From Flavisolibacter nicotianae (GTDB lineage Bacteria > Bacteroidota > Bacteroidia > Chitinophagales > Chitinophagaceae): a stretch of DNA of 64,000 nt. The stretch is from assembly GCF_003628535.1 (NCBI RefSeq), contig NZ_RBCI01000013.1, positions 62,001 to 126,000 on the forward strand, in the 5' to 3' direction. The position numbers and the translations under genes were made by a program. The notes under the pieces were generated by a model that did not search any database, had not been told where the DNA came from, and saw only the letters and a list, made by a program, of their open reading frames with translations. Position 1 is the stretch's first letter, and the number at the start of each line of letters is the position of its first letter. This document shows positions 7,237-62,074 of this stretch, piece by piece.

Positions 7237-8445
7237 TTAGCCCAGCCTGCTTATAATAGGCAATGATGTCGCAGGCTTTGTTACGCTAACATAGTTTCTC
7301 ATTGTTGTTTCCACTGTACTATGGCCCATCAAGTAAGCAACCTCTGTCAGTACCATACCCTGTTGAACAGCCCTAGTGCCAAATGAATGCCTTGCAGCAT
7401 ATAAATCCCTATCACCTAATCCCAGTTTTTCCATTACAGGCTTTAAAACACGTCTTTTAAGCATTTTGTCATCAATGGTTAACCCCTTAGGTGAAACGAA
7501 GACAAAATCTTCAGATTTTTTGTTTTCTAATAATGGTTCCAGTAATATTGAAAGCTCTGTCGAAAGTGGTAAGTACCTGACATTCTGCATTTTAGTGCCT
7601 TTTTCTATCCTAGATGCATGATTAGTGCCTTTAATAGTGCGGGCAAAGGTTTCAGATATTTCTATCTGACTAGATTCAAAATCAATATGTTTAACCTTTA
7701 AGCCTATTGCTTCAGCATTTCTCACGCCTGTATGGAAGATAAATGCAAGGAAAGGATAGTAGTGGGAATGTTTGAATCTGCTGGAAGTGGGACAATGAGT
7801 ATCATTTTTAATTGCATCTAAAAAGGAAACTATTTCATTTTCCTGTAATGGGTTCCTTCTAGAGCATTTGATTTTTCTTTTCTCCCGCTTTTTACATACA
7901 TCTTTAAGGGGGTTTCGTTCAATGATACCAGAATCAACAAGCCAAGTGAGGAAGGTGTTTAGATAAGATAGCCGTCTGTTATAAGTAGTAACAGCCCAGA
8001 TTTCACTATTTAATCTTTCGGCAATGGAATAGATAGGAACTTGAATTCTCTTTTCTAGCCATTTCCTGATATATAAATAGTCTATAGAGTTATCAATGTC
8101 TACATTCCTGAAATGCTTAGCCCATTCATTGAACTTAGCAGCTAAATCATTGAGAAATAATAATTTTTCCTGCTTGGTGGCTTCTGAGAGGTCTTTTTTG
8201 GCTTTAATTGGCTTAGTTGTAGGCAAGTAGCCATACTTTTCTAAAGAAGTATCGAAACTTCTCCGAAGTATGTCTAGTTTGATTTCTGCAACCTTGACAT
8301 TAGCAAAATGGAGATTTTCAGGATTAAAGTAATATGGGAGGTTTAAAGAATATCTTTCTCCCGCATACCTCCACCTGAGCCTAATTCTTCCTTCGCAATT
8401 AGTAATACTGATTTCTCCCTTAGGAGTTTTTAATTTCTGACCCAT
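7237..8445 (-). CDS. Tyrosine recombinase / integrase with DUF3596-like arm domain
   Basis: A site-specific recombinase, 402 aa, of the phage-integrase family. The N-terminus (about 1-60, GxIRLRWRYAGERYSL) resembles the DUF3596 arm-binding domain. A SAM-like core-binding domain follows (about 90-200) and then the catalytic domain. Catalytic residues seen are Arg in TGVRNAEAIGL, a Lys-containing beta hairpin, H-x-x-x-x-R in AARHSFGTRA, His in LMGHSTVETTMRNY, and the nucleophile Tyr in NYV. It is full length. It starts with ATG at 8445, about 100 bases from the tRNA-Pro 3' end, and is transcribed away from it, the usual layout for tRNA integrations. One copy of the TGACCCA motif overlaps its start codon, so integrase binding could repress its own expression. 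Confidence 0.95.
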   Translation of the reverse strand: MGQKLKTPKGEISITNCEGRIRLRWRYAGERYSLNLPYYFNPENLHFANVKVAEIKLDILRRSFDTSLEKYGYLPTTKPIKAKKDLSEATKQEKLLFLNDLAAKFNEWAKHFRNVDIDNSIDYLYIRKWLEKRIQVPIYSIAERLNSEIWAVTTYNRRLSYLNTFLTWLVDSGIIERNPLKDVCKKREKRKIKCSRRNPLQENEIVSFLDAIKNDTHCPTSSRFKHSHYYPFLAFIFHTGVRNAEAIGLKVKHIDFESSQIEISETFARTIKGTNHASRIEKGTKMQNVRYLPLSTELSILLEPLLENKKSEDFVFVSPKGLTIDDKMLKRRVLKPVMEKLGLGDRDLYAARHSFGTRAVQQGMVLTEVAYLMGHSTVETTMRNYVSVTKPATSLPIISRLG

Positions 8446-8541: not shown

Positions 8542-8587
8542 TTTGTCGGGTGGACTGGATTCGAACCAGCGACCCCTTGCACCCCAT
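8542..8587 (-). repeat. att direct repeat, integrase-proximal (inside tRNA-Pro)
   Basis: These 46 bases are identical to 3168-3213. They cover the tRNA-Pro(GGG) 3' half from the anticodon loop to just past the discriminator. The intact tRNA continues to 8619, so integration regenerated a functional tRNA at this end. Confidence 0.9.
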
Positions 8588-8619
8588 ACAAGTGCGCTAC
8601 CGGGCTGCGCCACCACCCG
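8546..8619 (-). tRNA. tRNA-Pro (anticodon GGG)
   Basis: Minus-strand cloverleaf: acceptor CGGGTGG/CCACCCG, D-arm GCGC/GCGC, anticodon stem CTTGT/GCAAG around loop ATGGGGT (anticodon GGG, decoding CCC/CCU), T-arm GCTGG/CCAGT around TTCGAAT. The discriminator is A. It shares its 3' half with the repeat at 3168-3213 and is the attachment site of the element. Confidence 0.95.
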
Positions 8620-8783: not shown

Positions 8784-8818
8784 CCTTAACCTCAACCTCA
8801 CCCCCAAACCTAAACCTT
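8784..8818 (+). repeat. AACCT-type intergenic repeat, copy 1
   Basis: A run of the degenerate unit YTMAACCT (CTTAACCTCAACCTCA..., AAACCTAAACCT) between tRNA-Pro and trmH. Related arrays lie at 11169-11192 (opposite orientation), 11642-11671 and 46874-46901. Confidence 0.6.
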
Positions 8819-10076: not shown

Positions 10077-11162
10077 TTACAGGGCAATGATCTGTACCGG
10101 TTGCCCGATCGAATGAAGGCTGCCTTCCAGCCGTTTGCAGTTGGTATCGGTAATAAAGATTTGCGTGTCCTGGTCGCTGCATACACTTGCCAGCAAATTC
10201 GTGATCCGTTCTTCATCCAGTTTTTCAAACACGTCATCGAGAAGAAGCAGCGGCGAAAATCCTTTTTCCTTTTTCAGGATGTCCATTTCGGCAAGTTTGA
10301 GGGCAAACAGCAGGCTTTTGCGTTGTCCCTGCGAGGCGATGCTTTTGAAGGTTTGTGCACCAAGCTGGAACACCAGGTCATCGCGGTGGATGCCGGCACT
10401 GGTGCGTTGCACCACCATATCTTTTTGCCGGGTAATGCGCAGGAGCGAGGCCAGGTCCGCCTGGTGCAGTTCACTGTCGTACACAAGGTCCACCGGCTCT
10501 TCCTGCTGGCTGATCTCGCTGTAGCGTTGAGCCGCAAGGGGGAGGAAGGTGCGCAGGAACGCAGCCCGGGTGGCAAACACGATCCTTCCTTCTTTTACCA
10601 GTTGCTCATCCAGGATATCCAGTACCGAAAGGTCACGGCCAAACCCTTCGTTCAGCGACCGGAGAAACGAGTTGCGTTGTTGCAGAATCTTGTTGTAGTG
10701 GATCAGTGCCTGCAGGTAGGCCGGGTCGAGCTGGGAAAGAAGGGTGTCCACGAATTTCCGCCGCTCTTCGCTGCCGCCGATAATGAGTTCCACATCATCA
10801 GGAGCAATGACCACGCAGGGATAATGTCCAATGTGTTTCGAAAAGCGGCTATAGGGTTCGTCGTTCAGCGTAAATTCCTTCTTGCCCGTTTCCCGCAGGA
10901 TGCAAACGGCCTTTTCCGCCTTCCCGTTTAACGTCAGGTGTCCTTCGATCCGGAAGCCCTGCTGGCCGTGCCGTACGTTGGAGGCATCGCTTCTGTGGAA
11001 ATAGCTCTTGGTAAAACAGAGGTAGTGGATGGCATCGAGCAGGTTGGTTTTTCCCGCGCCGTTGCGGCCACAGATCCCAACAATCCGGTTGGAAAACGAA
11101 TAGTGTTCAAAATCATAATTCTTGAACTGGAACAGCGATATGGATTGAAGGGAGAGGGACAA
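10077..11162 (-). CDS. recF: DNA replication and repair protein RecF
   Basis: An SMC-like ATPase of recombinational repair that helps load RecA at gaps with RecO and RecR. At 361 aa it has the family length. It shows Walker A GRNGAGKTN (32-40), the ABC signature SQGQRKSLLFALK (277-289) and Walker B LLLLDDVFEKLD (about 305-317), plus a D-loop region. The only start that keeps the N-terminal strand (SLSLQSISLFQFKNY) is TTG at 11162; a stop lies three codons upstream. That TTG forms part of TAGCTTTG, a match to the -7 promoter consensus, so either the promoter is elsewhere or the message is leaderless. It lies 21 bases after the four-helix-bundle gene. Confidence 0.95.
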   Translation of the reverse strand: MSLSLQSISLFQFKNYDFEHYSFSNRIVGICGRNGAGKTNLLDAIHYLCFTKSYFHRSDASNVRHGQQGFRIEGHLTLNGKAEKAVCILRETGKKEFTLNDEPYSRFSKHIGHYPCVVIAPDDVELIIGGSEERRKFVDTLLSQLDPAYLQALIHYNKILQQRNSFLRSLNEGFGRDLSVLDILDEQLVKEGRIVFATRAAFLRTFLPLAAQRYSEISQQEEPVDLVYDSELHQADLASLLRITRQKDMVVQRTSAGIHRDDLVFQLGAQTFKSIASQGQRKSLLFALKLAEMDILKKEKGFSPLLLLDDVFEKLDEERITNLLASVCSDQDTQIFITDTNCKRLEGSLHSIGQPVQIIAL

Positions 11163-11168
11163 AGCTAT

Positions 11169-11192
11169 AGGTTAAGGAGAAGGTTAAGGTTG
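11169..11192 (-). repeat. AACCT-type repeat, inverted copy 3' of the four-helix-bundle gene
   Basis: On the minus strand this reads AACCTTAACCTTCTCCTTAACC. It supplies the stop codon of the four-helix-bundle gene and is inverted relative to the array at 11642-11671, so the two bracket that gene. Confidence 0.6.
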
Positions 11193-11585
11193 GGCAGTCG
11201 AATTTTTGTTGGAAGAACCACTCGGTGTAGACGATAGGTTTTTGATAATCTTGTTTAGTTCTTCAACAACTTTCAGGCATTTGGCATTGATAGATGAAAT
11301 AGCATCCAACGTAAAATAGCCCACTTTATGACCGACAAGTAAATGGCTTCTCACTTCATAGCTGCTACCACGGGCATAGAGATAAAAATTTGTTTTATCC
11401 TTTCCGTACAGGCGTCCAAATCCTTCCGCAATATTTCCGGTCATGCCAATAGCAGCCTCCCTAACTTGTCCGCGCAGGGCATAGTCTTCGCTGCGCGGCA
11501 ACAGGGCAGATAAGTCGTAAACCTCCTTTACGACTTCTGCTGCTAATTGCCATGCCGGCATTTCCGTAAAATCAAGGTAAGCCAT
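11184..11585 (-). CDS. Four-helix-bundle protein (S23/IVP, bAvd-like family)
   Basis: A 133-aa helical protein of the family found in 23S rRNA intervening sequences and related to the Avd accessory protein of diversity-generating retroelements. Family signatures seen are MPAWQLAAEVVKEVYDLS, the Arg-rich GNIAEGFGR turn (about residues 68-76), and a later helix with VVEELNKIIKNL. Its biochemical role is unknown outside DGRs. I prefer ATG at 11585; an in-frame upstream start at 11639 would add 18 residues without family similarity. It is free-standing, between osmC-like and recF genes. The gene is flanked by AACCT-type repeats in inverted orientation and the 3' copy provides its stop codon, so it looks like a discrete insertable unit. 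No reverse transcriptase is nearby. Confidence 0.85.
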   Translation of the reverse strand: MAYLDFTEMPAWQLAAEVVKEVYDLSALLPRSEDYALRGQVREAAIGMTGNIAEGFGRLYGKDKTNFYLYARGSSYEVRSHLLVGHKVGYFTLDAISSINAKCLKVVEELNKIIKNLSSTPSGSSNKNSTAQP

Positions 11586-11641
11586 GAGTTTTTTAAATTT
11601 AATGCCATACACTTTACTATACTCACTCACTGTTTGCACTA

Positions 11642-11671
11642 CCCCTAAACCTAAACCTCAACCTTAACCTC
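11642..11671 (+). repeat. AACCT-type repeat, 5' side of the four-helix-bundle gene
   Basis: CCTAAACCTAAACCTCAACC followed by TTAACCTC lies between the OsmC stop and the four-helix-bundle start. It is inverted relative to the copy at 11169-11192. Confidence 0.6.
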
Positions 11672-11677
11672 AAAATC

Positions 11678-12091
11678 CTACCCCCAGCTCCCCCAATCGA
11701 CCTTCACTTCAATATCGGGGTGAAGACTCAGTTGCACAGGGCAGGTAGTACCGGTATTCTTCAGGATTTGCCTGGTTTTATCATCCACGTTTTGCAGGGC
11801 ATCCGGGATATGAAAAAAGAGGTTGATACCACCAACACGCCGTGGATTGGCCTTCATGATTTTTTCCACTTCTACTTTGACGTCGTTCAGGTCAAATCCC
11901 ATCGTCCGGGCCTTGATACCCATGACGGTGAGCATGCAGGTGGCCAAGGATGTGGCCATCAGGTCAGTGGGAGAGAAGCGTTCGCCTTTGCCGTTGTTAT
12001 CGACAGGTGCATCGGTTTCGAAATGGTTGGCAGATTGTAAATGGGTGCAGGTTGTGCGCAGGTCGCCTTCATAAACCACAGTGGACGTCAT
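11678..12091 (-). CDS. OsmC/Ohr-family peroxide-reducing protein
   Basis: A 137-aa OsmC-like protein expected to reduce organic hydroperoxides with a thiol pair. It shows the N-terminal beta strands, the FSPTDLMATSLATCML helix with the first redox Cys (Cys52), and the second Cys in GTTCPVQ (Cys117). The neighbouring Arg/Glu residues expected of the family are present. ATG at 12091 gives the normal family length; upstream in-frame codons would add 60 unrelated residues that overlap the divergent gene. The start is 46 bases from that of the divergent barrel-protein gene, so both promoters share a short AT-rich spacer. It reads toward the four-helix-bundle gene. Confidence 0.9.
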   Translation of the reverse strand: MTSTVVYEGDLRTTCTHLQSANHFETDAPVDNNGKGERFSPTDLMATSLATCMLTVMGIKARTMGFDLNDVKVEVEKIMKANPRRVGGINLFFHIPDALQNVDDKTRQILKNTGTTCPVQLSLHPDIEVKVDWGSWG

Positions 12092-12951: not shown

Positions 12952-13065
12952 CCGGATGCCAAACGTCAAATGTGAGACGTTAGACGTGAAAAAGGAGCGC
13001 CTCCCAAAGCGAGGTAAATACCGGTTTCGCGTTTGACGTTTGACGTTTCACCATAAAGAATTACT

Positions 13066-46873: not shown

Positions 46874-46901
46874 GCCTCAATCTTAACCTCAACCTCAACC
46901 T
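46874..46901 (+). repeat. AACCT-type intergenic repeat, copy 4
   Basis: CTCAATCTTAACCTCAACC followed by TCAACC, related to 8784-8818, 11642-11671 and, inverted, 11169-11192. Confidence 0.6.
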
Positions 46902-61690: not shown

Positions 61691-62074
61691 CTAGTGAGAA
61701 GTCGACCTGGTCTTCCTGTCAAGAGGTCTGAAATACCAGGATAAAACAATAATAAGCAATAAAAATAAGGACGGCATCGCTTCTGTAAACGGCTGGCCGA
61801 CCGCAAGATGAGAAATGGCTGCACCCGACATTGCAAAGAAAAATCCGGCATATGCCCACTCCTTCAGGAGGGGGAATTTCGGAATGAGAATAGTGATCAC
61901 CCCCAGGATTTTCCAAATCCCGATGATGGACAACAAATACAGGGGATAACCAAGGTTCGTCACTGTCTTGTTATAGCCACCTGTTTGAAGCATTTGTTGA
62001 GTGCCGCCTGCCGTCATTGCGATTGCAAGAAAAATAGTGACGGTCCAATAAATGATTTTGTTTCGCTTGCTCAT
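61691..62074 (-). CDS. DoxX-family membrane protein
   Basis: 127 aa, four hydrophobic helices with the DoxX-like pattern (IFLAIAMTAGGTQQML, GYPLYLLSIIGIWKILGVITILIP, AYAGFFFAMSGAAISHL). The family includes subunits linked to thiosulfate/quinone chemistry and membrane redox stress, but the role here is not established. Its start overlaps the SRPBCC gene's end by 4 bases, placing it last in an arsR-SRPBCC-DoxX operon, a set seen repeatedly in Bacteroidota. Confidence 0.88.
   Translation of the reverse strand: MSKRNKIIYWTVTIFLAIAMTAGGTQQMLQTGGYNKTVTNLGYPLYLLSIIGIWKILGVITILIPKFPLLKEWAYAGFFFAMSGAAISHLAVGQPFTEAMPSLFLLLIIVLSWYFRPLDRKTRSTSH

Follow-up and report, generated by a model that had tools for sequence, protein, structure and literature searches.

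The window analysed here is a stretch of 64,000 nucleotides of Flavisolibacter nicotianae (contig NZ_RBCI01000013.1, forward strand, positions 62,001 to 126,000; this genome is labelled G000 below). Between recF (10077-11162) on one side and an OsmC gene (which ends near 11678) on the other, it contains a small gene enclosed by two inverted repeat arrays:

11169 to 11671, minus strand: the whole unit, made of an array, a four-helix-bundle (4HB) gene and an inverted array.
11169 to 11194, plus strand: left array AGGTTAAGGAGAAGGTTAAGGTTGGG, AGGTT-type on the plus strand and C-rich on the gene strand; it is the 3' arm relative to the gene and gives the stop codon.
11184 to 11585, minus strand: the 4HB gene (S23 or 23S_rRNA_IVP family, Avd-like), 133 amino acids from the ATG; the open frame reaches back to a GTG at 11639.
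11642 to 11671, minus strand: right array CCCCTAAACCTAAACCTCAACCTTAACCTC, AACCT-type on the plus strand and G-rich on the gene strand; it is the 5' arm relative to the gene.

The initial annotation had described an S23/bAvd-like gene bracketed by inverted AACCT-type arrays at 11169-11671, and these positions are the exact outer ends of the arrays. The family assignment agrees with the profile search (TIGR02436, E = 4e-23; PF05635, E = 2e-23) and with the predicted structure (mean pLDDT 91), whose nearest known structures are XCC0516 (2gsc) and BT_0352 (2rld), followed by the Avd proteins of diversity-generating retroelements; Foldseek gives a TM score to target of 0.84-0.86 against 4dwl and 8ube, which have the Avd-like fold. 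The stop codon does come from the 3' array, as had been claimed: both the TAA (11184-11186) and the terminal residues AQP of the protein are encoded by the array. The match between the inverted arms has a score of 16, a value that 5 of 2000 dinucleotide shuffles attain, and AACCTNAACCT occurs 8 times in the window for 0.03 expected. The sense transcript of the unit is predicted to fold into a closed RNA stem (z = -3.8). The repeat period is 6 at this locus and 7 at most others.

The gene is not kept in place by all relatives. Between recF and osmC, G008 has the orthologous gene with variant arrays, in G010 the place is taken by another 4HB gene (34% identity) whose arrays are of the AGTTATT kind, and in G005 and G015 the gene is absent and solo arrays are present.

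The S23/IVP family is very widespread and uncharacterised, and its members are filed variously as ribosomal, CRISPR-associated or retroelement-associated. PF05635 is present in 235 of 296 sampled Bacteroidota genomes, many of which have at least 10 copies, and a profile search of the complete G000 genome finds about 15 such genes. The initial annotation had proposed to look for the array at the flanks of other 4HB genes. We compared each upstream flank with the reverse-complemented downstream flank and counted a match from a score of at least 15. Matched inverted arrays lie just outside the 4HB gene at 15 of 16 loci of G000, 22 of 25 loci of the same genus, 23 of 30 loci of other Bacteroidota and all nine loci of cyanobacterial plasmids; a genome scan queried with XCC0516 gave 72 loci that could be tested, spread over more than 20 phyla (Clostridia, Chloroflexi, Planctomycetes, Acidobacteria, Treponema and CPR among them), and 59 of these loci have them. 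Arrays therefore accompany 4HB genes almost everywhere, and their association is not confined to the window. Mismatched flank partners reach the array score in 9-16% of pairs (24% among the few cyanobacterial loci, which have similar arrays), and 20 of 643 other ORFs (3%) reach it, one of these being also periodic. About one in five 4HB loci has no clear arrays.

The build of the unit is constant: over about 0.45-0.55 kb, a G-rich 5' array of about four degenerate repeats of 6-9 bp (usually 7) is followed by a 4HB gene of 110-150 amino acids and by an inverted copy of the array. The units are intergenic, and their position often coincides exactly with a stop or start codon. Among 109 loci, 87 are best fitted by a repeat period of 7 and 15 by one of 8. 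The repeat itself differs from one G000 locus to the next (AGTTTGG, ACGTGAR, GAGTAGT, TTGAATG, AGTTCACG, AAAATGTG, CAATTGC and others). Read on the gene strand, 106 of the 109 loci have their G-rich arm on the 5' side of the gene. Ends that served as DNA only would not be expected to keep one orientation so strictly, which suggests that RNA, or one of the two DNA strands, plays a part. By eye, protein subfamily and repeat sequence seemed to be connected by a strong code; this idea was rejected, the overall correlation between protein similarity and array similarity being weak (rho 0.11, reached by 3 of 500 permutations) and carried by close relatives. Elsewhere, in the locus L169 (G017:C1), inverted GCTTGCAGC arrays alternate repeatedly between 11186 and 12706 with a spacing of about 500 bp, like tandem units.

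Paralogues located at unrelated loci (L004, L010 and L014 in one group, L005 and L012 in another) are 69-79% identical, and the homology between copies extends exactly as far as the outer array ends. The S23 genes of plasmids from Nostocales, Picosynechococcus and other cyanobacteria have the same architecture, with the heptamers AGGAGTC, GGGAACA, GGGTGTA and GGGAAAA, a type of repeat familiar from these bacteria for a long time, and related plasmids provide unoccupied counterparts of seven junctions (sites A to G) in which there is neither gene nor array. At site A, the empty sequence AAAAAGTAATTAACAAAT compares to AAAAAGTAAT-[unit]-GTAATTAACAAAT in the occupied plasmid, which is a clean 5-bp duplication of GTAAT; a third plasmid has this insertion too, with one arm shorter by two heptamers (L124 and L115 differ by exactly 14 bp). 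At site D, the place of the unit is taken in one plasmid (L132) by a hairpin without a gene. Since the empty sites lack both the gene and the array, the arrays are a part of the unit and not its target; pre-existing arrays as a target of insertion are ruled out by the same observation.

The initial annotation's reading of the locus as a mobile unit, perhaps a non-autonomous one, is thus supported, in that arrays and gene are gained and lost together at junctions of otherwise near-identical loci. The window locus is very probably a copy of such a unit, from a class of very small mobile elements that is widespread. A bolder reading goes further, and we give it a probability of about 0.45: these units may form a bacteria-wide mobile class that has no recombinase, integrase, transposase or reverse transcriptase, whose ends are recognised by their structure and by their match to each other rather than by a fixed sequence, whose sole gene, the 4HB gene, is the mobility factor, and which is the source of heptamer repeats and of rRNA intervening sequences.

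Three further features of the window are arrays without a 4HB gene:

8784 to 8818, plus strand: solo array of AACCT type that precedes a SpoU methylase gene; the same place has another solo array (ACTCATC type) in G010 and none in G008.
46874 to 46901, plus strand: solo array of AACCT type that precedes a conserved gene by about 100 bp; G008, G010, G016 and G005 lack it at the corresponding place.
12955 to 13054, no strand assigned: compact gene-less unit with inverted ACGTSAR arrays and a loop of about 30 bp; its array family is that of the 4HB units L005 and L012 of G000.

The first two had been read as empty sites of the mobile unit. They do exist without a gene, but each is a single arm with no inverted partner, and because true empty sites hold no array they are remnants or derivatives of units and not empty targets. 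A tyrosine integrase gene (7237-8445) and a tRNA gene (8546-8619) stand side by side close to the solo array at 8784-8818, a sign that an integrated island may end here.

The third feature belongs to a larger population. In a survey that covered an 864 kb sample of G000, inverted array pairs fall into two size classes, one compact, with a spacer of 6-158 bp, and one long, with 385-438 bp around a 4HB gene, plus one outlier. Three types of gene-bearing unit from G000 were compared with the 15 compact gene-less units; 13 of the 15 find their best match in the array family of one of these types, above the mean of the foreign sets, and 7 of the 15 beat every foreign set. In G002, a 7 Mb relative that has no S23 gene, inverted array pairs are nearly absent from 400 kb.

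Gene-less hairpins beside gene-bearing units resemble REPIN/RAYT or IS/MITE pairs (PMC3116915), and it may be that the units are non-autonomous and moved in trans by a conventional enzyme, either a REP-associated Y1 transposase, a DDE transposase or a reverse transcriptase of the type found in diversity-generating retroelements (DGR). The Avd fold, the occurrence of PF05635 near DGRs (PMC10053308) and the 5-bp duplication at site A all go in this direction; we nevertheless consider this explanation unlikely. The likeness to REPIN/RAYT extends to hairpin-forming inverted repeats, dispersed gene-less copies and a gene flanked by the same repeat, but RAYT is a single-copy Y1 transposase with conserved 16-mer REPs (PMC3116915), whereas the gene of the units is multicopy, has no known nuclease domain and is enclosed by ends that vary by copy. 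Such variable ends are unlike the substrates of one transposase, and the terminal inverted repeats common to all copies that characterise IS/MITE pairs are not found, the arrays being alike only in close paralogues. The units carry no transposase, and the helper enzymes looked for in G000, PF00078 reverse transcriptases and Y1 transposases, gave no partner. There is no PF00078 match in the complete G000 genome despite its about 15 units, which rules out dependence on a reverse transcriptase of this kind, and no reverse transcriptase lies beside the 4HB gene; of a DGR, with its reverse transcriptase and its template and variable repeats, the likeness found here is that of the Avd fold. G000 has three Y1 (PF01797) matches, and a REP-associated Y1 partner was rejected on the two that were examined, which are flanked by palindromes other than those of the units. 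These two genes, L108 (G000:C9) and L109 (G000:C2), have their own repeated palindromes (gctccgtaggagc and ccgaaggggcgg) and form a separate REP/RAYT-like system. Last, target-site duplication is not seen as a general feature: at the array ends of 113 loci, as far as these fuzzy ends allow, there is no excess over mismatched flanks, beside the clean 5-bp duplication at site A.

Another explanation, which we find quite improbable, is that the 4HB gene is a cargo with a function for the host, for example in defence or as a CRISPR accessory, and that the arrays are an independent repeat family that hosts the gene by chance. The existence of solo and gene-less arrays would fit, and so would the occurrence of PF05635 in cas loci, with one example between cmr2 and cmr3 (PMC3936711). 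A unit lies at the same place, the cas10-cmr3 junction, in Picosynechococcus PCC 7003 (L111), but this junction is free of the gene in pAQ6 of PCC 7002 (L136). The presence or absence of a unit at one junction gives a plain reason for these reports: judging from the sequences, the S23 genes described earlier in cas loci may be insertions like that of PCC 7003. Two other observations speak against a cargo: the long-loop pairs of G000 (385-442 bp) coincide with 4HB genes, and 4HB copy number varies widely within the genus, some copies being broken.

One intergenic site of Flavobacterium is occupied by a 4HB unit in about 20 species; other species have there a hairpin without a gene, about 96 bp long, or some other sequence. 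Two of these genomes, G042 and G317, are 99.8% identical in the right flank (about 100% over 1 kb) and 95% identical in the left flank (97-99% near the junction), and this identity runs up to the unit, while their 4HB genes are only 71% identical in DNA and 63% in protein and their arrays differ; by this comparison, one unit has been replaced by another. Over 190 species pairs at this site, the two flanks correlate with each other (rho 0.87) and the arms with the gene (0.70), against 0.39 for gene and flank and 0.42 for arm and flank. That gene and hairpin are ordinary chromosomal alleles, swapped by transformation and homologous recombination of the flanks, and that the arrays serve only as terminators or regulatory stems, is highly improbable: same-site replacement by different units is frequent and arrays often lie at gene ends, as terminators do, but the identity between G042 and G317 reaches the edge of the array, copies occur at unrelated loci with homology that stops at the arrays, and there are empty sites with neither gene nor arrays. 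Homologous recombination between flanks could account for a part of the swap and hotspot patterns. In another Flavobacterium genome (G382), the same site has a complete 4HB unit lying within what is left of another (L334).

For the movement of the units we propose, tentatively, the following mechanism. The unit would move in the form of a nucleic acid folded back into a hairpin. Its 4HB protein, a putative Avd-like ring that binds nucleic acids, would bind the stem of its own unit and pass it to enzymes of the host. Because the arms match within a unit and drift between units, something keeps them in step, and one arm may be re-copied from the other during movement or conversion; slippage by whole repeat steps would then make the arrays drift between loci. 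Transcripts that run through the unit would form a closed stem, like the one that RNase III cuts in rRNA intervening sequences, and this would let the unit sit in operons with little harm.

The 23S rRNA intervening sequences (IVS) of Coxiella and Leptospira that contain an S23 ORF have been suspected, but not demonstrated, to transpose (PMC4990558). They resemble the units in their gene family, their size (428 nt in Coxiella), their terminal inverted repeats, which form a long stem around the ORF, and their patchy distribution (PMC4990558); both the S23/IVP ORF and the stem-forming inverted ends are found in the units. On the other hand, the units lie between protein genes, have array ends that differ by copy, are present in many copies per genome and have empty sites. 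The window unit is located between recF and osmC, and no rRNA family is found at 20 further loci; being outside rRNA, the units are strictly not IVSs. Rather, the IVSs look like a special case, members of the class that would have landed in an rRNA helix.

The unit ties together two old puzzles, the S23 genes that are known from ribosomal RNAs in pieces and the heptamer repeats of bacteria, which have been described for decades but are of unexplained origin; these repeats are not known to have been linked to S23 genes. If the two are one mobile unit, this accounts jointly for the origin of rRNA intervening sequences, for the patchy spread of heptamers and for the presence of S23 genes in cas and conjugation operons; the movement of such a transposase-less unit is directly testable in cyanobacteria and flavobacteria. 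As far as the accessible text of the papers goes, the STRR or heptamer repeats of cyanobacteria, Beggiatoaceae and Xanthomonas are treated as regulatory or G-quadruplex elements, their origin is not stated as known, and they are not tied to S23 genes (PMC4679880, PMC4692102). So described, they have the same period as the unit arrays, the same intergenic placement and similar sequences, such as the GGGATTC type in Dokdonella (L218) and AGGAGTC, GGGAACA and GGGTGTA in Nostocales. A search of the open literature, with subscription journals and preprints outside its scope, found no paper linking heptamer arrays and S23 genes. Another short repeat, CCTTCGACTCCGCTCAGGGA, which occurs in many copies per Flavobacterium genome (for example at L198, 2570-2645), is apparently unrelated to the heptamer arrays.
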